Of a stretch of 64,000 nucleotides of DNA, positions 3,501-48,000 are shown in pieces. Origin of the DNA: Branchiostoma floridae (taxonomy: Eukaryota; Chordata; Leptocardii; Amphioxiformes; Branchiostomatidae); NCBI RefSeq assembly GCF_000003815.2, contig NC_049995.1, positions 19,057,252-19,121,251 of the forward strand. The letters run 5' to 3'. Position 1 is the stretch's first letter. Every line of letters begins with the position of its first letter. The position numbers were made by a program, and so were the translations under genes. A model generated the notes under the pieces. That model made no database searches and had not been told where the DNA came from. It worked only from the letters and a program-made list of their open reading frames with translations.

Positions 3501-5855
3501 TTATTATTGAACCGTACACTTTGCCGACACAACTTTCTTATCTCGTATCCACACTATTATCAAAACTAGTGTTTTGGTCGAACCACGCGGACAGCCGAGC
3601 GGGAAGCGCACTTTTCAAACCTGCGAGTCGTCACCGAAATTCCTGCCGACTCCTGAAGCCCTACCTTTATGAGTTACGTTTAACTGGAGAAAGACAAACA
3701 ATATGTAACTGTGAGCACATGCCTTTACTCGGGCACCCAGGCTCTCAGGGTGCTATTGTCTCACGCTGAGATCCCGCCGACTTGTTTATAGACTTCTTAT
3801 TCCTGCCGTTTTCTGTAACATGTCTTAATGTTCTCCAGAATTACGTGGTTTTCTTGGGAAGGTTTCTTGAAGAAAAGTTGTAGCGCCCCCCTGCCCTCCG
3901 CGCGCACGAGTCGGGTGTACTCTGGTAATCAGTATTGTTATATTGTAGGAACATGTTCTGCCCATTGTTGCCATTGTTAGCCGCGCAGCGCGGGTGATTT
4001 ACACACGAGGGCAGGATAAGGTGGACAAATATGTTTTCAGGTAACATCATGTCAGGCCTACGCGGCGGTAGCCCCGCTGCCGTGCCGGCCCGCAGGTTTC
4101 CTCAGGCGGACACGCGCCTTCCCCCGACCCCGTCTGGGGCACCTCCCGGTAAACTCCCGGCTGTCCGCCTCCCGATAACATCAGTCCGACTGGCGACAGG
4201 CGTGGTCAGTAAGGCTGACGTCTCCTCGCGGGAAGACGCCTTCTCGGGTTATAACAACGGGCACAGCGTCTTCAGACTGACTTAGGTTCGCCATGTCTTC
4301 ACCAGAAGGTCCCAATCTCCCATGTAGAGCACTTGTAATGGTGATACATTAGACTCAGGGCCGTGTCAGAAGTAAGATTTTGGGTGCAGCAAGATATAAG
4401 GCCATAAGGATGATGCGTTTGACGCTGTGAGAAGTAAAGTTTTAGGCACAGTATATTGAAGGGCGATGTGTTTGATGGCGTAAGAACTAAAGTCTTAACG
4501 TTTTTCTGTAACCCACGAAACCATCCACTTAACTTGCTTGTCCTCTGCGTTAAGAAATGTGCCAAGTGCTGATAACCCAAAAGTTTAATGTTTTGGGTAC
4601 TATATTGTTGATTAGATCTTATATTTGGCGTGCCACAATCACCCCTGTAAGCTATTAGATGTTGCCCTTTGTGCAAGAATTTTTTCTAGGACGTAGTTCA
4701 TGCGAACTATAATAAGTACAAACTTCTGAACAACATGACGACTACATGTAAAACGCGTGCTTTCTTTATACCCTTATTACACTTGACTCTACACTGATGT
4801 GTTTAGAACGTCCCCGGTGTCCTAATATGTGTCGTATACATGTCTGAAATCTTGATACTTGCTGTACAAGTGTGTTGTATTTCATGTATAAGTGTGGTAT
4901 GTGTATTACATGTTTGTGGAAGCCTGAATGCGTGTTGTTTAAATGTGTTATAGAATAACTTATACATGTAACACACTTACACATGTAGCATACTTATACA
5001 TTGTGGCACAATGTATAAGAATGCAACATAAATGTATAACTATTCTGCTACACTTGTTTGTATAAGCCTTAAGCGTTTTGCATTCTGTCTGTAGGTCACA
5101 GTTTCGTTATCTGCACCATGATGAGAGTTTTATACACGTGTTGTCCACCTCTGTTCCCTTATCGTGTCCAGTCTTAGACAAGAAGCCATACAAGCAGATA
5201 CAAGAGTTAGAATTTACCCTTATGTCTGCTGTTTCTTATGATAGTTTTGCTACAAACAAATGACGTCTTGTCTGAATGTCTATTGTCGTATCGCGAGGGG
5301 TGCTTTATTCTCGTATGAGCTATATCATCTCCCCAACAGCTCCTTACTCTCCAGCCATGCTAGCCTGTCCTGTCTATATCATATGTTGCTAGTGAGTTGC
5401 ACAAAGTGCAGTAAACCTAATGTTCAGTACCCTTCAACAGGTACAGGTCTAACAGCAAATCAGGGCCCCAAATGTGCTGTGAGTTTTTGTTGTAGGTACA
5501 GTGTTATAACGTGTGTTATAAGTCTGTACATACTAAGTGCTACAATGTTGTTACAATGCGCGTCTTGTGCCCAGCTAATGTTACCTGACGTGTGCCCTGT
5601 TCCCCTAACCTGTGTGTTGCATTATTGCGTGGAACAGAAACTGCCTGTTGATTCAAATTATACGTTTTGTTCCCCCTCATCCTTAGGTATTGAGTAGTAA
5701 CCCCTACCATGTTCTATATATCCCCCTAGCTAGAGGTTCTGGAGACCTGGCACCCCCGCCCACTGCCCCAGTCTTGAAACTTTGTAGACTGCTGTGCGTG
5801 TGTTGGAACCTTGGTTGGTACGTTACCGTGCATCAACATGTTCTGTCGTCCGCAG
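3501..5855. other. Non-coding stretch before the GATA first coding exon
   Basis: The sequence is mostly AT-rich with many TACATGT/ACACATGTA variants at 4700-5050, resembling an old decayed repeat. ORFs of up to 145 codons occur, but their translations resemble no family I know. If the promoter is near 3.2 kb, this is 5' intron sequence. Confidence 0.4.
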
Positions 5856-6250
5856 GTTCCCGACCCTTAGCAGCCCCTCCCCCCTCCCATCGGGGCTGTC
5901 CCGTCCCCCGGGGGTGCCTTCTTGCTGTGTGTTATGAGTTATTGATGTAAACTGTGAAAAAGTTTGTGTTGCACTCTTGTATATAACGTCCTTGCTGTGC
6001 CCTTACGCGTGTTCTCTGTCGTTCTCAGGTTCCCGACCCTTAGCAGCCCCTCCCCCCCTCCCCTCGGGGCTGTCCCGTCCCCCGGGTGCCTCCTTCCTGT
6101 GTGTTATGAGTTATTGTTGTAAACTGTGTGAGTTGTACTCTTGTGTATAACGTCCTTGCTGTGCCCTTACGCGTGTTCTCTGTCGTTCTCAGGTTCCCGA
6201 GCCTTCACACCCCCTCCGCCTCCCCCCGGGGCAGCGGCGTGGATGGCCCA
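5856..6250 (+). repeat. Three tandem copies of the GATA exon 1 acceptor edge
   Basis: The sequence CAG|GTTCCCGA followed by a C-rich tract occurs with exon-side starts at 5856, 6029 and 6193 (spacings 173 and 164 bp). The second and third copies are preceded by the same intron-like block (CCTTGCTGTGCCCTTACGCG, then TTCTCTGTCGTTCTCAG). Only the third copy leads into the coding exon. The array therefore duplicates a splice acceptor together with untranslated exon sequence. Confidence 0.75.
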
Positions 6251-7122
6251 GTGAATGGAACGGCGCGATCCCCTCTGGACCTCAGCGTACCGGGGAGCTC
6301 ACAGCTCGGTCTGCGGCCCGACCCCGCCCGTCCAGCCGCCCAGCGACATTAAGCCGCCGCGTGGCATGCCCAACGGCGGGCCCGCCTCTCTGCGCACCGC
6401 CGACCCAAACCAGCTCCTGCCCACGGAGGACGTCGAGAAGTTCTTCCGGCACTTGGACCGGCCCGTCGCGCCGAGCTCGCACGGCATCAGCGTGACGATC
6501 CACACCAGCCAGCGGGCGCAGGACACCACGGAGCCGCCCAGCCGCCAAGCGGCAGACGCGCACAGCTACGGCACGGACAGCCCGTACAGTAGCCCCGCGC
6601 TACAGAACTATAGCCTGGCCGAGACGAACTCAGCAGACATGTACCAGAATCACTCCGTCGCGGCCATGCACCATCCCGCCGGGTCCCCGCCCACCTACCA
6701 CGAGTCCCCGGGCGGGTTCCCTCTGCACGCCGAGGGCCGCAGCCCGGTGTACGTGCCCACCACGCGGGTCCACTCCATGCTGTCCATGCCGTACATCCAG
6801 CAGGGCAGCGCCGCCTCGCAGCAGGTCAACCCGCAGCAGACCAACGGCCACGCCGTCTGGTGTCAGCCCGACTCCACCGCCTTCCCCCAGCCTACCTCCT
6901 CGGCGCACCCCTCGGTGTCGCCCCGCTTCTCCTTCCCGCCGTCCCCGCCGCTGAACGCCGCGGCCAGCCGGGACTCCTACACGCCGCTGGCGCGCACCAA
7001 CGGGCTCAGCCCGTACACGGCCTACGTCAGCCCCGACATGGCCAGCTGGAGCACCTTCGACAACGTCGGCTTCCACCCGCGCGCCATCGGCGGGCCCACG
7101 CTGGCAAGGAGATCAAGCTCAG
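6193..7122 (+). CDS. GATA4/5/6: GATA4/5/6 exon 1: 5' leader and N-terminal activation region (coding from 6255)
   Basis: The exon follows TTCTCAG and ends CTCAG|GTAGGA in phase 1. It encodes residues 1-289 plus the first base of Glu290. Residues 54-68 read [15 protein letters not shown], which resembles the N-terminal box of vertebrate GATA1/2/3 proteins. Residues 129-172 contain MYQNHS and [10 protein letters not shown], typical of GATA4/5/6. The remainder is Pro/Ser/Ala-rich and low in complexity, as in the family's transactivation domains. GC content is much higher than in the flanking introns. Confidence 0.92.
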
Positions 7123-19300: not shown

Positions 19301-22300
19301 CTGATGGACTAGTGTATTGGTGAGTAGATGCATGGTTGTTAGGCGGGGTGATAAGTTACGCGTGTACTTTTGCTCTGTGGATGTCCTTGGGTCGGCCCGT
19401 TAGGAACATAACAACCCAGGAATTACTGTTACTAACAGCACCACAACTGCGGAATTAGCGCAGAGATAAATAACTACGGAGCGATGCCCGGCGAGTGAGT
19501 CCGCCCGTGGGGAACCCCGTCTGTTATCGGGCGGCGGCTGAATCTACCCTCCCGATACTGCAGCCCTTATCTCCCCCAACAACAAGCAATGTAAACTACA
19601 CCCGAGTATCAACTTCCCCTGCACTTCAGCCTGCTTTCGGTTCGGCAAGCCTGACAGGAAACAATCGGAGTTAAGGTCTTTAGTGAGTTTGTTCTTTAGC
19701 CTAGTTAAGACCTTCTCGGTCGATAACATGCCCATGTTACATGGAGATGTGGTTTCCCTTTGGCACTTGCAGGGCAGGCGCACAGTTATAATGTGGCCTC
19801 CGTAGCAGGCTCTAGTCTGGCTTTTCTTCTGATGGGATTCAGTAGCATCGGTTAGTTCTGCTGCACTCGTCTGACACGCGAGTGGGATCCGGGCGACATA
19901 GAATTCCATCAGACAAAAAGGAGGCTAAACTTTGGATGATCAGATCTATTGATATTCGTACTTTTATTTTATTTGTCAGCAACTGATACTATGTACTATA
20001 ATGTACTACTGTATAATGTAGCCTTTCTCTGAAGTTGTCGTTCTCAGGCCCCGGCTTTCCGTTGGAAAGTCAGATCCATTGTAGTTAGCTTTTGGTGATA
20101 TTTCTGCTGTTGTTGAATGTTGAGGCGACAACATGTGGATTGTAGGTACAAGTACCAATTATGATGTGATTATGTAAACAAAAGTCACGCTACTCAAAAC
20201 AACATGTTTTACCGATTAGCGCAGAAATAAACACAAGCGGCCGCAGGCAGCGACAATTGAAAAAAAAATAGTTCGTTGTAACTTCCTGTCCCCAAATGGC
20301 CCTCGTACACATCGTTGTGCCAGAAGAACACTAAAGATTTTCCAATGATTCCCCTACTCCTGTACTAAGTGGTTATATTGACTGGTTAGTGACTGACGTG
20401 TTTAAGGGTGAGTTTTACTCCTGCAAACCTTCCGTTCCCGTAGCGACAGGTTGATGCTGTGTTCCCCATCTCCTATGTTGAACAGTACTACAGAATGGCT
20501 TCAGTTATTCTCTCTCAGACCTGGGAAACTGCAGTTCCCCTAATCGTTGATGCGGTGATGCTGTTGATGCGGTGGTGTTGAGTATCTCCCCATCTCCTAT
20601 GCTGAACAGTAATTACAGAATGGCTTCAGTTTCCCCCCTCAGACCTGGGAAACTGTAGGGAAACTGCAGCGCCCCTAATAAGAAGTTGATGTGGTGGCGT
20701 TGAGTGAGGCCAGGCCCCCTGCCCCAGTTCGCCCTGACAGCCCAGATGTGTCCTGGCGACGGTCTGACCGGCCTATCAGCCTCACACCGACGGCCTGGCG
20801 TCGCTATCAGCCCCGGCCGTGCGCCGGGCCGAACCTGACACCGAAAGTCTGCGGCTGGGGGAAGGGGAGGTTCCGCTCGGCCGCCTTCCCGTCTCCTTGC
20901 TAGGCTGCCGTCTTAAGACGCCCCCCCCCTCCCGTTCCCAGAGTCGTCTAGACCAGAGAAGCCCATCCGTCAATCTGGTGGCGCTCAGCTGGCAGGCAGG
21001 ACCTCCCTGAGGAGGAACACAGGGGGTGGCCGGCGACGATATGGGCACCCGACCGTCAGGTTAGCGTCAAAGGGGCGCCCGCCGTCAGGCTAGCGTCACT
21101 GGAGTGTCCGAGCGTCAGGTTAGCGTCACGGGCGTCCGAACGTCAGGCTAACGTCGCTGGGTCGTCCGAGTTTCAGGTTAACGTCATGGGCGCGTCCCGA
21201 CGTCAGACCAGCGTCACTGGAGCGTCAGGCCGGCGTCACGGGACCCTCGACCGTCAGGCTAGCGTTAAGTTCAAGTTGGTGGAAGTGTCCACTGCTGTGT
21301 TTCAGACATTGATAAAAAAAGCTTTGAGCGCATTAAATGTCTTTCGTCTCTATAAGCCATCACGATGGTCATTCGACGTTGCCGAAGATGACTTTGTGTT
21401 CGAAGGTGGCTGATAAATATTTCCTCAGAGAGATTAAGCTCCTAATCCCTCTTGACCACAGGCCGGTTGTAGGACAGACAGTCATATGGTCGATCCGGGC
21501 AGCGACTACCGCGGTACTCACGGCGCCTTTTCGTGTCCCCCGAAACTGTCTGCACACGGGCCTAAAACTAGCACGTCCGAGTTACGGTATGTCATTAGAA
21601 CAATCTCCTGCATACTTTTCCCCACAGTTACTACTGCTGCCTTCTTGTGCGGCTAAGTGTACGTAATCCTTCACACAATGTTAAAATTGGAGATCCGGGC
21701 TTTTCTTTCTAACAGCCTCCTTACAAAAAGTTACAAGCTCTCATCAAACAAAAAAGGAAGTACATTCCTGAGGTAAAACAGTGCCGCCGCGGGTCCAACA
21801 TGACGGATGTGACAGATCATGTCAGACAGAAGGACAGATGGGTCCGTGTGACATCTCTAATGATGAATAGGTTGGAATAACGTTAGCCGAAACTGTTACA
21901 GGGAAAAGGTAGCGAACCGTAACTGCTACATTATGGATAGGTCTGCATAACGTTAGCCGAAACTGTTACAGGGGAAAGTAGCGAACCGTAACTGCGACAT
22001 TATGGACAGGTCCGCATAACGTTAGCCGAAACTGTTACAGAGGAAAGTTGCGAACCGTAACTGCTACATTATGGACAGGTCCGCATAAGATTAGCCGAAA
22101 CTGTTACAGGGGAAAAGTAGCGAACCGTAACTGCTACATTATGGACAGGTCCGCAAAACGTTAGCCGAAACTGTTACAGAGGAAAGTTGCGGACTGTAAC
22201 TGCTACATGATGAATGGCCCGTATAACGTTAGCCGAAACTGTTACATGAAAGAGTCGCAGTCCATACGTGGGAGCGCTGACCGGCCAATTAGCAGCGTGT

Positions 22301-25300
22301 TGGTTTTACTCTGGTTCCAATTTGCGGTGATCATCATGTCAGCACAGGGTATGAGATGGACGGGCAAGGTATCGGTAAGGTCAGATTAGCCTCGGACCAG
22401 ACACAATTGTAGCCTGGGTATCAGCCACATTAGGCTAGGTACCAGCCTCAGTGGGGCTCTAAATTTAGTAGTCTAAAAGCGAGGGTTATTTTGAGCTCGA
22501 ATAGGCTTCAACAGTATTTCTTGTCAGTCCAACCTGCATCGATAGATCCACCTGCAAAGTATTTGTCCTTTTGGTTTCAATATGTAAAGCTGATGCTACT
22601 AGTGATACAACACAAAGTTGTGTAGGGTTCTATCCTTTGGAGAAAGAGACAATGATCAAAACTGACTTCCCTGTCCGCACATGGGACATTGCGTAATCTA
22701 GTGGACACGCGAAGTTAATGTAGTGTCAACCTCAATATGATGTCTTGCCCATTGTAAATAATGCACTGTCCACTCCAATATGATGTCTTGCCCATTGTAA
22801 ATAATGTACTGTCCTCTCCAATGTAATGCATTGTCCATCTCAGAGCCGTACCGATTACAGAACAATGTCCCAGTGTTGGCCCAATTAGCCCCTGTGCAGT
22901 GGGCACACGCCGGCTTGTCCATCAGCAGGGGAACAATGGGCAACATGCTGGTCAGTGTGATGGATCACTAACCTGCTCCTGGGACAATAAAGGACTAAAC
23001 TTTTGTCCTGCTTCCGGAGCACTATAGGTGATGTGGTTTAAGATCCCGTCACATGTCTTGTAAAGACTAGGGGTCCACCTCAGTGTAAGTGAAGCAAATG
23101 TTAGTCAGCTCTTGTTCGGTTACTGGATAACACCCCTAGTTTGTGTTGGGGCAAACCATCCAGGGCGTTCCTCAGGTGTTGCAACACCTCTTCCTTAAAG
23201 TTAACGGGATTAGCTTGAAGGGTCAGTCTCCAAGTTAACCATAGTTACTGTAACCATAGTAACTGTGGTAACAGTTACCTTCATAGCCATAGTGTAAGCT
23301 GTAGGGCTAGAGTTATATTGGATAACGGAGTCCATATAGAGTTTCCTTCACCATAGTTACTGTTACCATAGTCACCTTACCTTACCAGAGTGGAAGCTGT
23401 AGGGCTAGTGCTATACATGAGTCTATACATGAGTTACCTTCAGTATAGTTACTGTTACCATAGTAACCACTCTGAGAGATGCACAGGTTGGTTGCAGATG
23501 AGAGTGAAGCAGAGGGGGATGTGAAGTCCGGGAAAGTCTGCGGAACGTTTGGGAAGTCTTCGGAATAAAACCGTTTTGTGCCGTGGTTTGTCACTGCCAC
23601 GGCGGGAGTTCAGGTAACGCCACAACTGGCCACATCCCCCTCTGAGCACTGAAACCTGCCTTCTCAAAAAACAAACGTCAAAAGTAAGAACGTATTTGTT
23701 AAAAGCAGTTGTGTTTGGTGTTTCAGAGGGGCGTGAATGTGTCAACTGTGGTGCTACCTCCACCCCCCTGTGGCGGCGAGATGGAACAGGCCACTATCTT
23801 TGCAATGCATGTGGACTCTACCACAAGATGAACGGGGTGAACAGGCCCCTAATCAAGCCTCAGCGGCGACTGGTGAGTAAGACTGTCCTGTTTTGTAGGT
23901 GTTGCTGAAGCTAACTGGCTGAACTACTCAGGCAAGGAGGACTACCTGAGCCTGTACCAGAACTATGGGCTCTATCAGCAGCTCAACGGCGCTCAGAAGC
24001 CCGGTCTTGCCAAGCCCCCCAAGAAACTGGTAAAGAGTCTTATCTTTCACATGTTTCTCAAGAAACTGGTAAAGCGTCTATCTTTCAAGTCTCCCAAGAA
24101 ACTGTTACTGGTGAAGGGTCTTATCTTTCACAAGTCTCCCAAGAAACTGGTAAAGCATCTATCTTTCACGTCTCCCAAGAAACTGGTAAAGGGTCTTATC
24201 TTTCACAAGTCTCCCAACAAACTGGTAAAGGGTCTTATTTTTCACGTCTCAAGAAACTGGTAAAAATTATCTTTCCCAATTCTCCCAAGAAACTTGTACA
24301 ACTTATCTTTCACACGTCTCCCAAGAAACTGGTAAAACTTCTCAAATTTGAGACACCGGTAAAAGTTTTCTTTAAGAAACTGGTGAAATCTATTTCCCCC
24401 AAAGCTGGTAATTTTTTCTTACACTGTACAGAACCCATTGTAAAAGGTCCTATCCCAACATATAATTGCAAATCTGTCTTTCCCTTCTCTGACACAAGAT
24501 TTCCAGTTTTCAGAGGCCAACATCTATAGATGGTGCGTACGGCCTTGTCATATAATGATGAACCCACCTTATGTCTGTGCAGTTGACCAGTTGTATGTAT
24601 TGTTAGAAAAAGACTGTTGTTAAAGTTTTTTTAGTTTTACCCCAATCATGAACTCTGACCTCCCGTTTCCTTAGTCTGCGTCCCGCCGCGTGGGCTTGCA
24701 GTGTGCCAACTGCCGCACGACGCAGACGACGCTGTGGCGGCGGAACAATGAGGGTGAACCCGTGTGCAATGCCTGTGGCCTCTACTTCAAACTACACAAT
24801 GTAAGTACTGCCTGTGGCCTCTACTACAAACTACACAATGTAAGTACAACCCTACTACAAACTACACAATGTAAGTACAACCCTACTACAAACTACACAA
24901 TGTAAGTACAACCCTACTACAAACTACACAATGTAAGTACAACCCTACTACAAACTACACAATGTAAGTACTGCCTGTGGCCTCTACTACAAACTACACA
25001 ATGTAAGTACAACCCTACTACAAACTACACAATGTAAGTACAACCCTACTACAAACTACACAATGTAAGTACAACCCTACTACAAACTACACAATGTAAG
25101 TACAACCCTACTACAAACTACACAGTGTAAGTACAACCCTACTACAAACTACACAATGTAAGTACAACCCTACTAAAAACTACACAATGTAAGTACCACT
25201 AGCAATGATAAAAAGTTATGTGTATGTTACATGCATATACAGCTACAGGAACAACTCTTATGTAAGCATATTATAAACCATAAGCCATTCAGAACCTTGG

Positions 25301-31300: not shown

Positions 31301-33757
31301 AGGAAAGCCCATCGGGTGCCAAACTCCTCCCACCTAGCTATTGTTGCCTGACGAGTTCTGCCTTTATATATCATGTTAGAGGAAGAGTTGAATGGTTTCT
31401 GTCCCCATTAAGCAGATTAAGCTCATTTTGTGATGACAGTTGACTGCTAACTGACAATCAGAAACTATTTCTGCAATCTGCAGGAGTTTTAGATGAGTCA
31501 CAGTGACTTCCAAACTAGTAGAGACTTTGTCACATCCCATCTGTTCCAAACGACGTTTCCTCTGTTTTTCGGGAGTCTGGCCAAAGTCAACTCCGCGCAT
31601 GTTTGTGGGGATCAGCAGGAAGCATTTTAAGTTCCTTATCTCTGAACAACTCCACTGTAGCTTACAGCTATGCTGAGGACCGAACGTGTTCTTCTAATTC
31701 CCATTTAACATTCCTCAATCGGGGAGAACTCTCACCGGCTGGAGTGTTCCACTGCAAACATCAGTGGTGATGACTTAATGATTTATGGACTCTTTCTGAC
31801 AACTAGCATTCATTTACTATGATTATGAAACAGCCAAGTGCCTTTCCTCTCCTATGTGTCTCTTTAGTCATACTGTTTCTGACTTCCCTGAACTTTCACA
31901 ATGAATTGCTGAAAAATACTTTGCAGAGGGGAAACTAGAATTCACCTGGCAAGTTTTTAGTCTAGCAGGCTGTATTTCAGTGCACATAATTGCTATCAAT
32001 CCTCTATTTGTAGTGTTTGTCAACAATTCTTTTCAAATCTCTTATCGGGAGTAAAGACAAAGTGCAGTCTTAGTGAACAAGATAGCTCCAGCAGTATCTG
32101 ATGTTCCTGGGGCGGTTAAAACAGACTGTAGCCAACATGGGTAGGAAGTTGTGAGCATGTTGAACTTGAGGAATGAACTTGAGTGAGTGTAATTGTCTGG
32201 GGTTAGCGGATTGCTCCTGAAGCCTGAACAAATTACAGGAAATGGGTGGAAGCTGCTGCAGCCCCCCATACGGCCTGTTATCCCTGCAGCCCCCCATACG
32301 TCTCCTGTTATCCCGTCCCTGCAAACCTGAAACCAGGCAAGGGTAACCTGGGCACTGGGCAGGTAAGCTGGGAGCTTAGCTGCACATGTGGCAAAAATGG
32401 GACGTACTACATGTCAACCGGAAGTACAGCCCAACATGTGGCTAGGACAGGATCAGTTAGCTGCTGGGATTCCGTACCAGCTTCACCTGTAAACACTGGA
32501 CTTACAGGGTCTTTCAGGGGGAGGCACAACTCTGGACTTACAGGGCTTTTGGGGGGAGGCACAACTCTGGACTTACAGAGGCTTTCAGGGGGAGGCACAA
32601 CTCTGGACTTACAGAGGCTTTCAGGGGGAGGCACAACTCTGGACTTACAGGGGCTTTCAGGGGGAGGCACAACTCTGGACTTACAGAGGCTTTCAGGGGG
32701 AGGCACAACTCTGGACTTATAGGGTCTTTCAGGGGGACGCACAACTCTGGACATTATTATGAGGCTTAGTATCAACTTAGGATCAACTCTGGAAGTTTCT
32801 GCAGAAAAGCACAACCCTGGAATTGGGCTACAGTACAGGGTTTTGCCTGTTGACCTTGCTTGTCCCTTGTAAATGTAGTGTGATAACTTATACCAAGACT
32901 GTAATAGACTTTTCCCCAAAACTGTTTTCTTGACTTTTCCCTTTTCCTTGCAGGTGAACCGGCCGCTGGCCATGAAGAAAGATGGAATCCAGACGAGGAA
33001 GAGAAAACCTAAAACTCTAAACAAGGGGAAGGGAGGCGGAGACAGCAAGCCTCCAACTAGCACCAGTAATAACACAGGTGAGTGTGGTTATGTACAAACT
33101 AGCACCAGGAATAAAGCAGTACAGGTATCTACCTGCACAATTATCCTTAAAGTTTAAATGTGCTGTTGCCTGATGAAAAACTAATGTGGGGGGGATCCTG
33201 GCCCACTCTGAACAATCAGCCACAAGTTTAAACAGCTGTTTCTGCACTTCTCATGCATGTGACTGGCTATTGCAATGTATTGCCTGTCTTATGTGCAAGC
33301 TGCTACAGTTGTGGATCCAGGTTACCAAATGATAATGATTTTAATATTAATATTGGGTGTCTGTTATGATCCAGTACAGAAGTGATTATTGATGGTTGCA
33401 ATGATTTTCCTCACTGTTGTCAGTTGTACAGTATGTTTATTGATAGATTGATTATTGATAGATTGATTATTGCTTATTGCAGGTGACTCCAGTGGTCCAG
33501 CTCACAGCACTGAGGAGACTCGCAGCCCTCACTATGGCAACCACTCGACCAATCAGGCGCCTCTCTCCCAGCCCTCCCACTCGCATCCCTCCATGATGAT
33601 GAACCAGAGCCCCACCCTGGGGACCCTCCCCACCCCCGACCAGAGCCCCGGCCTGCAACCCCCCTACCCCAAGGTCTCCCCCTCACCCCCCGTTACCATG
33701 GCGATGGCTCTGGATGCCACAACCCACAGTCACCAAAACCACCCACATCACAACTGA
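6255..33757 (+). CDS. GATA4/5/6: GATA4/5/6 zinc-finger transcription factor, whole gene (five coding exons plus one alternative exon)
   Basis: Proposed join: 6255-7122, 23727-23872, 24675-24800, 32954-33077, 33483-33757 (1539 nt, 512 aa). Phases are 1, 0, 0, 1 and all junctions are GT-AG. It encodes a nuclear factor binding WGATAR sites in endoderm and mesoderm genes (family knowledge). The N-finger cysteines are at 294/297/315/318 and the C-finger cysteines at 348/351/369/372, both CX2CX17CX2C. The basic tail after the C-finger carries RKRKPK, a GATA4/5/6 rather than GATA1/2/3 signature. The N-terminal [10 protein letters not shown] (residues 163-172) is also GATA4/5/6-specific. An in-frame TGA directly precedes ATG 6255. 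A second conserved start, Met129 (MYQ), aligns with the usual vertebrate GATA4 start. Replacing exon 23727-23872 by 23899-24029 gives an alternative 507-aa form. Confidence 0.94.
8040..8700 (+). repeat. Diverged tandem repeat of about 200 bp carrying AGATAA motifs
   Basis: Several old copies share the order: GAATAGATAAACT, a TCTGTCACAGACGATTG-like block, GCAGAATGCAAAC, then a GTTTATAAGTTTGAAAC-like block. AGATAA occurs at 8049, 8262, 8281, 8488, 8658 and 8677, often as a pair (AGATAACG then AGATAAACT). Weaker remnants continue to about 9.1 kb (AGATAA again at 8816). Confidence 0.65.
10317..10378. repeat. (TA)n microsatellite
   Basis: About 30 TA dinucleotides with a single G interruption. 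Confidence 0.95.
10473..10686. repeat. Minisatellite, about 41-bp unit, five to six copies
   Basis: The unit contains ACTATCCTGCTGACCACATA then GAGAAGCTATAATGTTAAA. The last copies are shortened (GCGCTCCTGACACATAGAGA). Confidence 0.9.
11397..11625. repeat. Minisatellite, about 46-bp unit, four copies plus decayed ends
   Basis: The unit has CAGTCGCGCGTTCCTACAGA followed by TTGTACATTACACAATACAC. The right edge decays into ATTACACAAAACACACATGA copies. Confidence 0.9.
14805..14935. repeat. Short minisatellite around ACGTCAGTACGTACTGGTGG
   Basis: About four copies of a 31-bp unit with GGTTCTGTAGTGGTTACGTC. The two central copies are identical; outer copies are diverged. Confidence 0.8.
16220..16317. 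mobile_element. Hairpin element with 35-bp arms (MITE-like)
   Basis: Left arm 16220-16254 and right arm 16283-16317 are inverted complements with three mismatches (AAAAAGCAGTTACTCAAGCA against TTCTTGAGCAACTGCTTTTT), separated by 28 nt. It has no coding capacity. Target-site duplication is not clear because both ends are homopolymeric. Confidence 0.65.
16441..16545. repeat. Minisatellite ACCACCATCTCGCCCCTATC, four copies
   Basis: A 26-bp unit with TCAGTA spacers; the third spacer is shortened to TCGTA. Confidence 0.9.
17813..17915. mobile_element. Second CTCTCCAAGC-ended MITE, near-perfect hairpin
   Basis: A 103-bp element flanked by TA on both sides. The arms read CTCTCCAAGCAGAGGTTGAG then TCGCGTAGATATAGTAGT, matched by ACTACTATTATATCTACGCGACT and GCTTGGAGAA on the right. 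It shares about 20 bp of terminal sequence with the element at 1267-1473 but has an unrelated interior. Confidence 0.8.
18118..18440. repeat. Minisatellite cluster of CACCTG E-boxes
   Basis: Tandem TCACCTGACGGTGTC units alternate with GCACGGCAGGTGCTGCGGGG units. I count 12 CACCTG and 5 CAGGTG in about 305 bp. Because units keep multiples of three in places, ORFs up to 184 codons cross it on both strands; these are repeat artefacts. Confidence 0.9.
18540..18660. repeat. Minisatellite TTTCACCTTACACAAAGATG, three copies
   Basis: The unit is about 45 bp and includes TTGTTACACAGGGACAATG. It degenerates to the right into ACATGGT/TTACAC-rich sequence. Confidence 0.8.
20461..20690. repeat. Two-copy tandem duplication of about 120 bp
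   Basis: Both copies contain CCCCATCTCCTATGYTGAAC, ACAGAATGGCTTCAGTT, and CAGACCTGGGAAACTG. The copies differ by substitutions and small indels. Confidence 0.75.
21045..21265. repeat. GC-rich minisatellite CGTCAGGTTAGCGTCA, about seven copies
   Basis: The unit is about 33 bp with variable filler (GGGGCGCCCGC, GGAGTGTCCGAG, CGGGCGTCCGAA). Confidence 0.85.
21870..22250. repeat. Minisatellite, about 70-bp unit, six copies
   Basis: The unit has ATAACGTTAGCCGAAACTGT then GCGAACCGTAACTGCTACAT and TATGGACAGGTCCGCATAAC. Copy starts are spaced 67-70 bp. Core blocks are nearly invariant while the GGGGAAAAGTA linker varies. Confidence 0.9.
22728..22835. repeat. Minisatellite CAATATGATGTCTTGCCCAT, two to three copies
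   Basis: The unit is about 42 bp with TGTAAATAATGCACTGTCC; the right copy is diverged. Confidence 0.8.
23225..23470. repeat. Diverged repeats of CCATAGTTACTGTTACCATA
   Basis: At least six scattered copies of a palindrome-like ACCATAGTTACTGTTACCAT block, partly interspersed with GCTGTAGGGCTAG copies. The region lies just upstream of the N-finger exon. Confidence 0.7.
23727..23872 (+). CDS. GATA4/5/6: GATA4/5/6 exon 2a: N-terminal GATA zinc finger
   Basis: The acceptor GTGTTTCAG precedes 23727 and the donor GTGAGT starts at 23873. The exon is 146 nt (in phase 1, out phase 0) and encodes residues 290-338. It has [29 protein letters not shown] and ends KPQRRL, matching the GATA4/5/6 N-finger nearly residue for residue. 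In the family this finger contacts FOG cofactors and stabilises binding to palindromic GATA sites. Confidence 0.96.
23899..24029 (+). CDS. GATA4/5/6: GATA4/5/6 exon 2b: candidate mutually exclusive, cysteine-free N-finger paralogue
   Basis: The exon is bounded by TTTTGTAG and GTAAAG. It is 131 nt and, joined to the phase-1 end of exon 1, stays open for 44 codons and exits in phase 0, exactly like exon 2a. Its C-terminal half aligns with the N-finger: [15 protein letters not shown] against [15 protein letters not shown], then KPPKKL against KPQRRL. It has no cysteine; both positions aligned to the CNAC pair are tyrosines. Only 26 nt separate it from exon 2a, and splicing 2a to 2b would give a stop after seven codons, so the two should be alternatives. 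Its own role is unknown; a GATA form keeping only the C-finger is the direct prediction. Drosophila serpent makes one- and two-finger forms by alternative splicing (from memory). Confidence 0.72.
24018..24390 (+). repeat. Minisatellite of exon 2b end plus donor (AAGAAACTG|GTAAAG)
   Basis: About eight copies of CCCAAGAAACTGGTAAAG with a TCTTATCTTTCACAAGTCTC linker follow the real donor at 24030. Units near 36-39 nt keep the exon 2b frame open until a TAA at 24261-24263, so several decoy donors would still give an in-frame product. Confidence 0.88.
24675..24800 (+). CDS. GATA4/5/6: GATA4/5/6 exon 3: C-terminal GATA zinc finger
   Basis: The exon is bounded by TTTCCTTAG and GTAAGT. It is 126 nt, phase 0 to 0, and encodes residues 339-380: [38 protein letters not shown]. 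This is the main DNA-binding finger. The linker SASRRVGL is the GATA4/5/6 form and follows KPQRRL (2a) or KPPKKL (2b) equally well in frame. Confidence 0.96.
24801..25195 (+). repeat. Minisatellite of C-finger exon end plus GTAAGT donor, 13 donors
   Basis: ACAAACTACACAAT|GTAAGT recurs with donors at 24801 (real), 24840, 24871, 24902, 24933, 24964, 25003, 25034, 25065, 25096, 25127, 25158 and 25189. Most units are 31 bp. Two are 39 bp and retain more exon sequence (CTGTGGCCTCTACTACAAAC, encoding CGLYYK). Confidence 0.95.
25565..26905. repeat. Large minisatellite, about 47-bp unit, about 27 copies
   Basis: The unit contains AAGCTATGGGAGAATGTGCT, ACAAGTTCTATCATTGGATC and TGGCAATA. Variants are GAGAATG or GAGAAAG, and TGGATCTGGCAATA or TGGACCTGGCTATA. 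In the right half the variants follow a partly repeating three-unit order. The left third has longer units with an extra ACAGT. It lies in GATA intron 3. Confidence 0.95.
27330..28245. repeat. Two abutting minisatellites (about 34-bp and about 46-bp units)
   Basis: 27330-27545 has six copies of AAAACAGGCAGGCTTAACAT with GTTGGGATCTGGGAC. 27545-28245 has about 14 copies of CAGGCTGGGATCTGGGAAAG with GCAATGCTAGAGAACAGGCA. Both share GGGATCTGGGA, so one probably arose from the other. Confidence 0.93.
28500..29320. repeat. Diverged tandem repeat interrupted by a MITE
   Basis: Copies share GATGGTTCTGAGACTATG, CTAACTCCACAGCAGCCCAT, ATGGCAATGCTGTATTCCAG, GCTCGGCCAGAATCTGCC and CCCCTCCCCTCCTCTCAGGG. 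Three complete-looking units lie at 28,960-29,320. One copy is split by the element at 28761-28961. Confidence 0.85.
28761..28961. mobile_element. MITE with 13-bp perfect inverted ends and TTCCAG target duplication
   Basis: The element starts GAGGGTCTGCATG and ends CATGCAGACCCTC. TTCCAG lies on both sides (28755-28760 and 28962-28967). Removing it restores the host repeat TATTCCAGGCCCC, so the insertion boundaries are certain. The interior is a chain of TACGNNTTACG motifs (CTACGTATTACG, CTACGAATTACG twice, CTACGCCTTACG). Confidence 0.87.
29440..30060. repeat. Minisatellite with repeated RFX X-box-like palindrome, about 14 copies
   Basis: The 41-bp unit is CATGGAGAGGTCGTGATGTA plus CCATTGCCATGGCAACCTGC. 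Interspersed longer units carry TCCGTCACTATGGCAACCAG and CTGACAACCTG. TTGCCATGGCAAC is one base short of the full RFX palindrome GTTGCCATGGCAAC. Four overlapping ORFs on the minus strand are repeat artefacts. Confidence 0.93.
30061..32504 (+). other. GATA4/5/6 intron 3, right part
   Basis: I see unique non-coding DNA with a few short repeats: AGGCACTGCTGACAATAGGC variants at 30690-30850 and AGTCAGAGGGGCAGTTA twice at 30640-30675. I recognise no exon. Confidence 0.5.
32505..32750. repeat. Minisatellite, 37-bp unit, about seven copies
   Basis: The unit contains GGCTTTCAGGGGGAGGCACA followed by ACTCTGGACTTACAG. It ends about 200 bp before the next GATA exon. Confidence 0.93.
32954..33077 (+). 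CDS. GATA4/5/6: GATA4/5/6 exon 4: basic tail after the C-finger
   Basis: The exon is bounded by TTTTCCTTGCAG and GTGAGT. It is 124 nt, phase 0 to 1, and encodes residues 381-421 plus one base: [20 protein letters not shown] then a Lys/Gly/Ser-rich stretch. The basic segment is the family's nuclear localisation and DNA minor-groove contact region. One partial copy of the exon end (AACTAGCACCAG, AATAAAGCAG) follows the donor at about 33099-33121. Confidence 0.94.
33483..33757 (+). CDS. GATA4/5/6: GATA4/5/6 exon 5: Ser/Pro/His-rich C-terminus and stop
   Basis: The acceptor TTATTGCAG precedes 33483; the exon runs in phase 1 to TGA at 33755-33757 (residues 422-512). It is rich in Ser, Pro and His ([33 protein letters not shown]), as expected of a disordered activation tail. 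The last codons, HQNHPHHN, are reiterated beyond the stop in the following array. Confidence 0.88.
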
Positions 33758-45003: not shown

Positions 45004-48000
45004 GTAGGTATAACAGCTTAGTTACAGTTACACATGTCTTACACACAACCGGACTCTCGATGGTGCCCTGCACCCGACTGTGGGTAGGTATAACAGCTTA
45101 CTGATGTCTTACTAACGTCTTACTAATGTCTTACACACAACCCTGATGGGTACCTGAGGAGATCATGCTGCTAACTAGTGTCTTACTAATGTCTTACACA
45201 CAACTGGATTCACGGTGGTGCCCTGCACCCGACTGTGGGTAGGTATAACAGCTTACTGATGTCTTACTAACATTTTACTAACAATATAACATATAACATC
45301 TTACACACAACCGGACTCACGATGGTGCCCTGCACCCGACTGTGGGTAGGTATAACAGCTTACTGATGTCTTACATGGCTAACGAATGTCTTACTGATGC
45401 CTTACATGGCTAATAACGTCTTACTAATGTCTTACACACAACTGGACTCAGGGTGGTGCCCTGCACCCCACTGTGGGTAGGTATAACAGCTTACTGATGT
45501 CTTACTGGGCTAACTAACATCTTACTGATTGTTTTACACACAACCCTGATGGGTACCTGAGGAGTTCATGCTGCGCCGGTGCCTCACAAGCTGCGGGAGG
45601 GCTGTGAGAGTTGCTGTTGTTGTTTATTGTTGTTGTTTATTGTTTACAGCTATGCTGTGATTGCCAGCGGCTGTGCGAGCTGCCCTAAGCTGCAGTGCCT
45701 GCGGGAGGGCTGTGTTGTTTATTGTTGTTGTTTATTGTTGTTGTTTATTGTTTACAGCTATGCTGTGATAGCCAGCGGCTGTGCGAGCTGCCCTAAGTTA
45801 CAGTGCCTGCGTGAGGGCTGTGGCACGTATTTCTGCTACCACTGCAAGGCTGAGTGGCACCCGAACCAGACGTGCGACATGGCGCGGCAGCAGAGAACCA
45901 ACCAGCTGCGCTCGTCCTCCGTCAGCTACTCGCAGGTCTCCGCCGCGGACGACATCAAGCCCTGCCCGCGGTGCGGAGCCTACATCGTCAAGATGGACGA
46001 CGGGTCCTGCAATCACATGACCTGCGCCGTGTGCGGGGCCGAGTTCTGCTGGCTCTGCATGAAGGAGATCTCCGACCTCCACTACCTAAGGTCAGTCACC
46101 TTTCACCTCCGACCTCCACTACCTAAGGTCAGTCACCTTTCACCTCCGACCTCCACTAACTAAGGTCAGTCACCTCTCACCCCTGACCTGCACTACCTAA
46201 GATCAGTCACCTCTCACCTCCGACCTCCACTACCTAAGGTCAGTCACCTCTCACCTCCGACCTCCATTAAGGTCTAGGGGAAGAAGCCCTGGAGTAGGAA
46301 GAAGAAGATCCTGTGTCGTTGTTGTTGTTTATTGTTTGTTTGTTTGTTTACAGCCCGTCAGGCTGCACGTTCTGGGGGAAGAAGCCCTGGAGCAGGAAGA
46401 AGAAGATCCTGTGGCAGCTGGGCACCCTCGTCGGGGCGCCGGTCGGAATCGCTCTGATTGCTTCCATCTCGCTTCCTGCTATGATCATCGGGATTCCGGT
46501 CTACATGGGCAGGAAGGTTAGTAACAAATCCTAACCCCCAATCATAGCCTCAACTCCCAACCCTTATCCTAACCTTAAGGGGGCACACACCAGTTTATTT
46601 GGGGGTTCAAATGGAGGCGGCACACCCTCAAGTCTAGCGACCATCTCTTCCAGGGAATTATCCTGAAGCAAAATAACTGTATATGGGGTGAGAGGATATA
46701 CCTTCAGCTACAAGACCACTGAGTTTCGATCCTTCAACTTCTCTAATTTTGAAAAATTATAGGGAAAAAACATTATTTTCATGTCAAAAATGATGCACAA
46801 AATCGGGCATTTTCGCATTGGATAAAAGAGATGAAGAAGATTTTTCCGGCAAGCACGACTGATACTGCCAGAAAGAGGAAAATCTAAAGACTAATCCAGC
46901 CAATTATAAAGAAAATTCTAGTACTACAGTTTTTTTAATCATCCACGGCGCGCGGCATTGCAACTTCGCTTGACACAGCGCTTCAGAGGTAAATCTAGGT
47001 CACGGGCCTCTTTACATTCAGGCGTAGGGATATCGCGGAAGCAACGCGCGGACCAAAACACAATTTGCACCAAAAACACACCATTTCCTACGCTTTTCAG
47101 CCATGTAACCGTTTAATGTCATTTCGCAGGAAATAATGAGAAATGTCAACTCAAACATGGGCCCTCGGAAGCCTTTCGTCACTTTTTGGTCGCGGACTAC
47201 CACGGACCCCGGTCGCGGAAGAACTGGTGTGTGCACCGTTAATCTATAACATAGCCGCCCCACTACCCAACCACCCGTCATGATCATCTTCATCCCAGTG
47301 TACATGGACAACTTGCTCTTTTGTTTTTCCCTCTGCAGATCCATAACAAGTATGAGAACCTGCCTCCACACCGACGCCACCTGGCTGTCACGGGGGGAGT
47401 TTCATTATCCATCCTGGTGGCACCTGTACTGGCAGCACTCACTGTTGGTAAGTTGGGGGTACAGCAGTGGGATTAAAACAGTAGTGTGCAGAAGTGTTAA
47501 GGTGGGATTAAAACCCTTCTCTGTCAGGAATCATCATGCTAGCGTACGTGTACGGCATGGTCCCGATCTTGCTGTGTTGTCATGGCTACCACGTTGCCAT
47601 AGTTACCATGTTTTCTGCCTGTTCCCCAGGAATCGGGGTTCCCATCATGCTAGCGTACGTGTACGTCATGTTGTCATGGTTACCATGTTGCCATAGTTAC
47701 CATGTTTTCTGCCCGCAGGTATTGGGGTTCCCATTATGCTAGCATACGTTTACGGTGTGTTGTCATGGCTACCACGTTGCCATAGTTACCATGTGTTCTG
47801 CCTGTTCCCCAGGAATCGGGGTCCCCATCATGCTAGCGTACGTGTACGGTGTGTTGTCATGGTTACCATGTTGCCATAGTTACCATGTGTTCTGCTTGTT
47901 CCCCAGGAATCGGGGTCCCCATCATGCTGGCGTACGTGTACGGCGTGTTGTCATGGCTACCACGTTGCCATAGTTACCATGTGTTCTGCTTGTTCCCCAG

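Follow-up and report, generated by a model that had tools for sequence, protein, structure and literature searches.

A lancelet GATA4/5/6 gene with two second exons

The window analysed here, a stretch of 64,000 nt from Branchiostoma floridae (NC_049995.1, positions 19,057,252 to 19,121,251 of the forward strand), contains a lancelet GATA4/5/6 gene with two alternative second exons, only one of which encodes the first zinc finger. Its features are as follows, in window coordinates:

6639..7122, + strand: GATA456 exon 1, coding part; starts at the MYQ methionine of Gillis et al.; donor CAG/GTAGGA; leaves phase 1
23727..23872, + strand: exon 2a, N-terminal GATA zinc finger; 146 nt, 49 aa, EGRECVNC...KPQRRL; donor CTG/GTGAGTAA
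23812..23872, + strand: 3' part of 2a that recurs in 2b, at an offset of 154 nt
23873..23898, + strand: spacer between 2a and 2b; 26 nt, contains the 2a donor and the 2b acceptor
23899..24029, + strand: exon 2b, cysteine-free alternative to 2a; 131 nt, 44 aa; weaker donor CTG/GTAAAG
23966..24029, + strand: 3' half of 2b, resembling 23812-23872 in protein and DNA alignment
24018..24336, + strand: minisatellite of the 'mirage' type at the end of 2b; units of 36-39 nt copying the 2b exon end and donor
24675..24800, + strand: exon 3, C-terminal GATA zinc finger; accepts phase 0; Pfam GATA match
32954..33077, + strand: exon 4, lysine-rich tail of the DNA-binding domain; contains the reverse primer site

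The order of N-finger exon, C-finger exon and short lysine-rich exon is that of a GATA4/5/6 gene, the assignment to the 456 class being based on the published gene and primer matches and not on a tree. Exon 2a gave a Pfam GATA match, and 47 of its 49 residues were identical to GATA-4 chain 8vg0_T (PDB) in the alignment. Exon 2b alone gave no Pfam match, and Pfam analysis of the spliced products led to two GATA fingers with 2a and one with 2b. As the original prediction had claimed, the 2b peptide contains no cysteine. A fingerless alternative exon thus lies directly before the C-finger exon, the arrangement expected for an N-finger swap of the serpent type. In the whole genome, eight GATA-finger matches were above the Pfam cut-off, four of them in two two-finger genes (the GATA4/5/6 gene described here and GATA123 on C5); the other four, at C15:15903521-15903607, C16:7632308-7632391, C2:23474549-23474659 and C1:12819709-12819804, lie outside both.

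The isoform pair itself is already known from cDNA. Gillis et al. (2009; PMC2857956) describe, in their passages on this gene, two B. floridae GATA456 clones of 874 and 859 nt that were aligned to one locus and are identical except for alternative second exons, the shorter clone being without the first finger. The published primers for this gene were found in the window with zero mismatches at 6639-6662 (+) and 33045-33070 (-). Clone lengths predicted from the window exons were 873 and 858 nt, each 1 nt below the printed value, and the difference of 15 nt was reproduced exactly (146 minus 131); this is a comparison of lengths and description, not of clone sequences, and with two clones only, joint or skipped products are possible. 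From the length and the description we infer that the exon of published isoform b is 2b. The description of the clones also supports the claim, made in the original prediction from the sequence, that alternative second exons yield one- and two-finger forms. Isoform b shares with the gene in the window an exact primer match, a finger-removing alternative second exon and the 15-nt difference; in contrast to the present account, these passages of the 2009 paper do not deal with the distance of 26 nt between the exons, the logic of the reading frames or any homology of the alternative exon to the N-finger exon.

Reading frames and splice sites of the second exons

Direct reading and in silico splicing confirmed the proposal that 2a and 2b are interchangeable by phase: both have phase 1 at the upstream junction and phase 0 at the downstream one, and exon 1 could be joined to exon 3 in an open frame through either of them. 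Splicing of 2a to 2b led to a stop after 7 codons, as had been foreseen, skipping of both second exons led to a frame shift and a stop after 25 codons, and retention of the spacer between them to a stop after 11 codons. Either exon alone is in frame and both or neither break the frame, which is the behaviour of a mutually exclusive pair. The spacer of 26 nt, recognised with its splice ends in the original prediction, is indeed below ordinary intron size, a spacing in accordance with mutually exclusive exons. As the 2a donor and the 2b acceptor are only 26 nt apart, splicing of 2a to 2b is not expected, as reasoned from this distance.

Introns 1 and 2 contain 70 AG...GT stretches of 131 nt (those overlapping 2a left out), eight of which are open in the right phases. 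Among these eight, 2b is the sole candidate with similarity to the N-finger, with a score of 52 as compared with 16-21 for the other seven. The GC content at the third codon position is 0.73 in 2b versus 0.38-0.46 in the flanking introns, and its codon usage is mildly coding-like (147 of 1,698 background pseudo-exons were at least as good). Due to the weakness of this last signal, codon bias was dropped as a proof that 2b codes. The reading of 2b as a chance open reading frame was rejected on the basis of the published cDNA lengths and the primer matches.

The calculated pairing with U1 was -10.8 kcal/mol for the 2a donor CTG/GTGAGTAA versus -5.3 kcal/mol for the 2b donor CTG/GTAAAG; for scale, the donors of exons 1, 3 and 4 gave -10.7, -6.8 and -14.1 kcal/mol, respectively. 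As the exon 3 donor also reaches only -6.8 kcal/mol, the weak 2b donor is no proof of minor use. A possible RNA hairpin between the end of 2a and the start of 2b did not stand out from shuffled sequences (z -0.44; 63 of 200 as good), and RNA structure was therefore rejected as the device behind the exclusivity. On reading the spacer sequence, its A residues, apart from that of the acceptor itself, lie in or adjoin the 2a donor. Factors bound at the 2a donor and at the 2b acceptor, 26 nt apart, would hinder each other, and the two sites probably compete for the splicing machinery. The loss of frame in products with both second exons or with neither would add a second layer of exclusivity. In this scheme 2a is likely to be the default exon, and 2b would be used when 2a is repressed.

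Similarity between 2a and 2b and the origin of exon 2b

Local alignment of the 2a and 2b peptides led to a score of 52, compared to a shuffle mean of 19, and one of 40,000 shuffles was as good (0/20,000 and 1/20,000). Of 1,730 pseudo-exons taken from the two strands of the window, some of them nested or overlapping, none matched this score; the best reached 38. The similarity is confined to the last 21 residues of 2b, which align with the end of the N-finger exon, so that the predicted alignment of the C-terminal half of 2b with the N-finger was borne out. When the last six residues of 2b were removed, the score was 41, reached by 7 of 20,000 shuffles; residues 1-31 alone scored 32 (120 of 20,000), and the last 13 residues alone scored 22 (964 of 20,000); reversed 2b gave a score of 22 against 2a. 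Homology of 2b to the C-finger was rejected, with 4,334 of 20,000 shuffles as good. Against the open reading frame that holds the N-finger exon of the paralogous gene GATA123, 2b scored 51; a search for a 2b-like exon at that locus gave, besides this N-finger exon, no gene-strand open reading frame of at least 15 aa above 32, the score of the next-best one. Among the best-scoring candidates of the whole genome, only the window's own copy of a 2b-like exon was found at E <= 0.001. The top-scoring background pseudo-exon in the protein test between 2a and 2b was a cysteine-rich reading frame at 45772-45935 (+).

At the DNA level, the whole exons scored 13 versus 8.2 for plain shuffles, with 38 of 5,000 as good. 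The 3' halves alone, split at a point that was chosen after the alignment had been seen, were matched by 11 of 2,000 dinucleotide shuffles, and together with 30 nt past the donors they scored 36 versus 18, a value that 0 of 2,000 dinucleotide shuffles reached. The 5' halves showed no similarity (1,922 of 2,000 shuffles as good; 630 of 2,000 with the upstream flanks). The codon of the fourth cysteine, inspected by eye, is TGT in 2a and TAT in 2b. As the DNA similarity starts in the middle of the exon, passes the donor and is absent from the 5' halves, a partial copy is suggested; judged from the sequence, the copied stretch apparently starts close to the fourth cysteine and extends across the donor, at an offset of 154 nt. 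Taken together, we consider it highly probable that 2a and 2b are mutually exclusive exons, that the 2b product has the C-finger only and that the second half of 2b was copied from the 3' end of 2a.

The original prediction had explained 2b by tandem duplication of the exon followed by loss of zinc binding. The homology of the C-terminal half stood, while the first half of 2b turned out to be unlike 2a in both protein and DNA, and this claim could be upheld in part only. A duplication of the whole of exon 2 in tandem and subsequent loss of all four cysteines, also the origin proposed in the literature for serpent (in the parts of PMC8844375 considered here), would agree with the end-anchored position of the last 21 residues and with a global alignment of 2a and 2b that scored 28 (shuffles averaged -28, and none of 20,000 was as good), pairs an upstream YL and places S and Y opposite the last two cysteines. 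However, the first 23 residues of 2b alone scored 13 against 2a, less than the average shuffle, and 18,137 of 20,000 shuffles did at least as well; the 5' halves lack the DNA similarity that such a duplication would leave. As the first half of 2b is unlike 2a, a duplicate of the 3' boundary in which most of the cysteines were missing from the outset is a somewhat better fit. Whole-exon duplication was therefore downgraded, not rejected; it is possible, and we lean against it.

Tandem duplications of exon-intron boundaries have been described in amphioxus as 'mirages'; in two globin genes the repeat units measure 150-160 bp and 157 bp, and a model has been put forward in which such a repeat becomes an exon (as given in the parts of PMC3087553 considered here). 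At the present locus, about 60 nt of the 2a end, the donor and about 90 nt of intron would have been duplicated in tandem with a period of 154 nt; the copied intron would have supplied an acceptor that turned the duplicated piece into an alternative exon. Exon 2b, at least its second half, would then go back to a duplicate of the 2a 3' end and donor, and the first half would be of another or an unrecognisable origin. The DNA similarity from mid-exon through the donor, the closeness of the period to the published units, the published model and the presence, at other places in the same gene, of two repeats of donor boundaries and one with an acceptor-like site all speak for this origin, as does the similarity between the stretches that follow the two donors (84 of 2,000 shuffles as good). 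This intron-to-intron signal is marginal, however, falls in the 36-nt minisatellite and disappears when the spacer is taken by itself (1,213 of 2,000 shuffles as good). The exon split point was also picked post hoc from the alignment, and no origin of the 2b first half within an intron could be traced, either in intron 1 (22000-23700; 388 of 500 shuffles as good) or in the rest of intron 2 (24340-24674; 198 of 1,000). On balance, we give a boundary duplication of this kind an even chance.

Further repeats of this type were observed in and around the gene. In the minisatellite at 24018-24336, one search pattern detected eight downstream donor-like copies, four of them in frame with 2b (ending at 24068, 24149, 24185 and 24224); as the 2b frame is open to 24260, longer in-frame versions of 2b are conceivable. 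A 31-nt minisatellite at 24782-25196 copies the end of the C-finger exon and its donor; counting the genuine boundary, the motif occurs 13 times. Upstream of the coding part of exon 1, at 5842-6232, a 164-nt repeat is present in 2.3 copies and carries the acceptor-like motif CAGGTTCCCGA.

Predicted function and comparison with known systems

The protein made with 2a is expected to contain both GATA fingers, and the one made with 2b would keep the C-finger and the basic stretch before it and lose the N-finger. It would bind plain GATA sites through the C-finger and might thus act on different target genes. As 2b lacks the N-finger, including the FOG-binding valine, which we take to be the valine of CVNC, loss of the contact to FOG is expected, and the 2b protein should not recruit N-finger partners of this kind. 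A valine of the N-finger is required for FOG binding, and in Drosophila the serpent isoforms SrpC and SrpNC differ in function: the fat body and viability require the one-finger form, and the identified SrpNC-specific functions depend on the FOG protein Ush (in the parts of PMC8844375 considered here). By analogy, a similar division of labour between one- and two-finger forms is a reasonable expectation for the lancelet.

Strong divergence from 2a, a weak donor and a modest codon signal would also be expected if 2b were a splicing by-product without function, which would be compatible with the exon structure and not with the role proposed above. On the other hand, one of the two published cDNA clones had an alternative second exon of the length of 2b, the 2b frame is unbroken and its phases fit on either side, and the basic tail before the C-finger is retained. 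We consider a by-product unlikely.

That serpent of Drosophila has one- and two-finger splice forms, as stated in the original prediction, is confirmed in print: in this gene, also of the GATA456 class, either exon 4A with the N-finger or exon 4B precedes the C-finger exon 5, and 4B has no known motif (as described in the isoform passages of PMC8844375). If 2b were orthologous to hexapod serpent exon 4B, the finger swap would be older than the split of protostomes and deuterostomes. Gene class, position before the C-finger exon and consequence for the protein are the same in both. However, the serpent authors did not find the alternative exon in non-hexapod arthropods, and exon 4B is little conserved even among insects (both from the parts of PMC8844375 considered here). 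We regard orthology as very improbable; solely on the distribution as published, convergence of the lancelet and serpent exons would be favoured. It is conceivable, although we hesitate to expect it, that a captured mirage repeat became a working alternative exon of a master regulator of development and independently recreated the serpent-type one-/two-finger GATA switch, a case of parallel evolution in two distant phyla.

In the 2022 serpent paper, the finger-swapping exon is assigned a hexapod origin and set against the situation in vertebrates (in the parts of PMC8844375 considered here); the paper nowhere uses the words amphioxus, Branchiostoma, cephalochordate or lancelet, and the word serpent is absent from the text of Gillis et al. 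(2009; PMC2857956). Among the open-access matches listed, no title or abstract links the lancelet exon to serpent. The present analysis adds the partial homology of 2a and 2b, their reading as a boundary duplication, and the link between the 2009 and 2022 papers. With a serpent-like switch in an invertebrate chordate, it becomes possible to compare GATA4/5/6 function in the presence and absence of the N-finger close to the chordate base and outside the vertebrate duplications. Should 2b have started out as a boundary repeat, it would provide an actual case of the route of exon birth that was modelled on amphioxus globin genes (PMC3087553, in the parts considered here).

Of the known systems, the duplicated HLH exon of COE/EBF in vertebrates offers a parallel as a tandem exon duplication inside a transcription factor, but the duplicate became mandatory there and not alternative (according to the parts of PMC2394523 considered). 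Amphioxus mirages would share with the present case the copying of an exon end together with its donor and a similar unit (154 nt here, 150-160 and 157 bp there), whereas they were suggested to leave regular splicing undisturbed and the copy described here would have become a used exon (PMC3087553, in the same parts). The closest system by architecture is serpent exon 4A/4B, to which the lancelet pair is likened by this architecture and not by sequence, the serpent exchange being described as probably of hexapod origin (PMC8844375, in the isoform passages).
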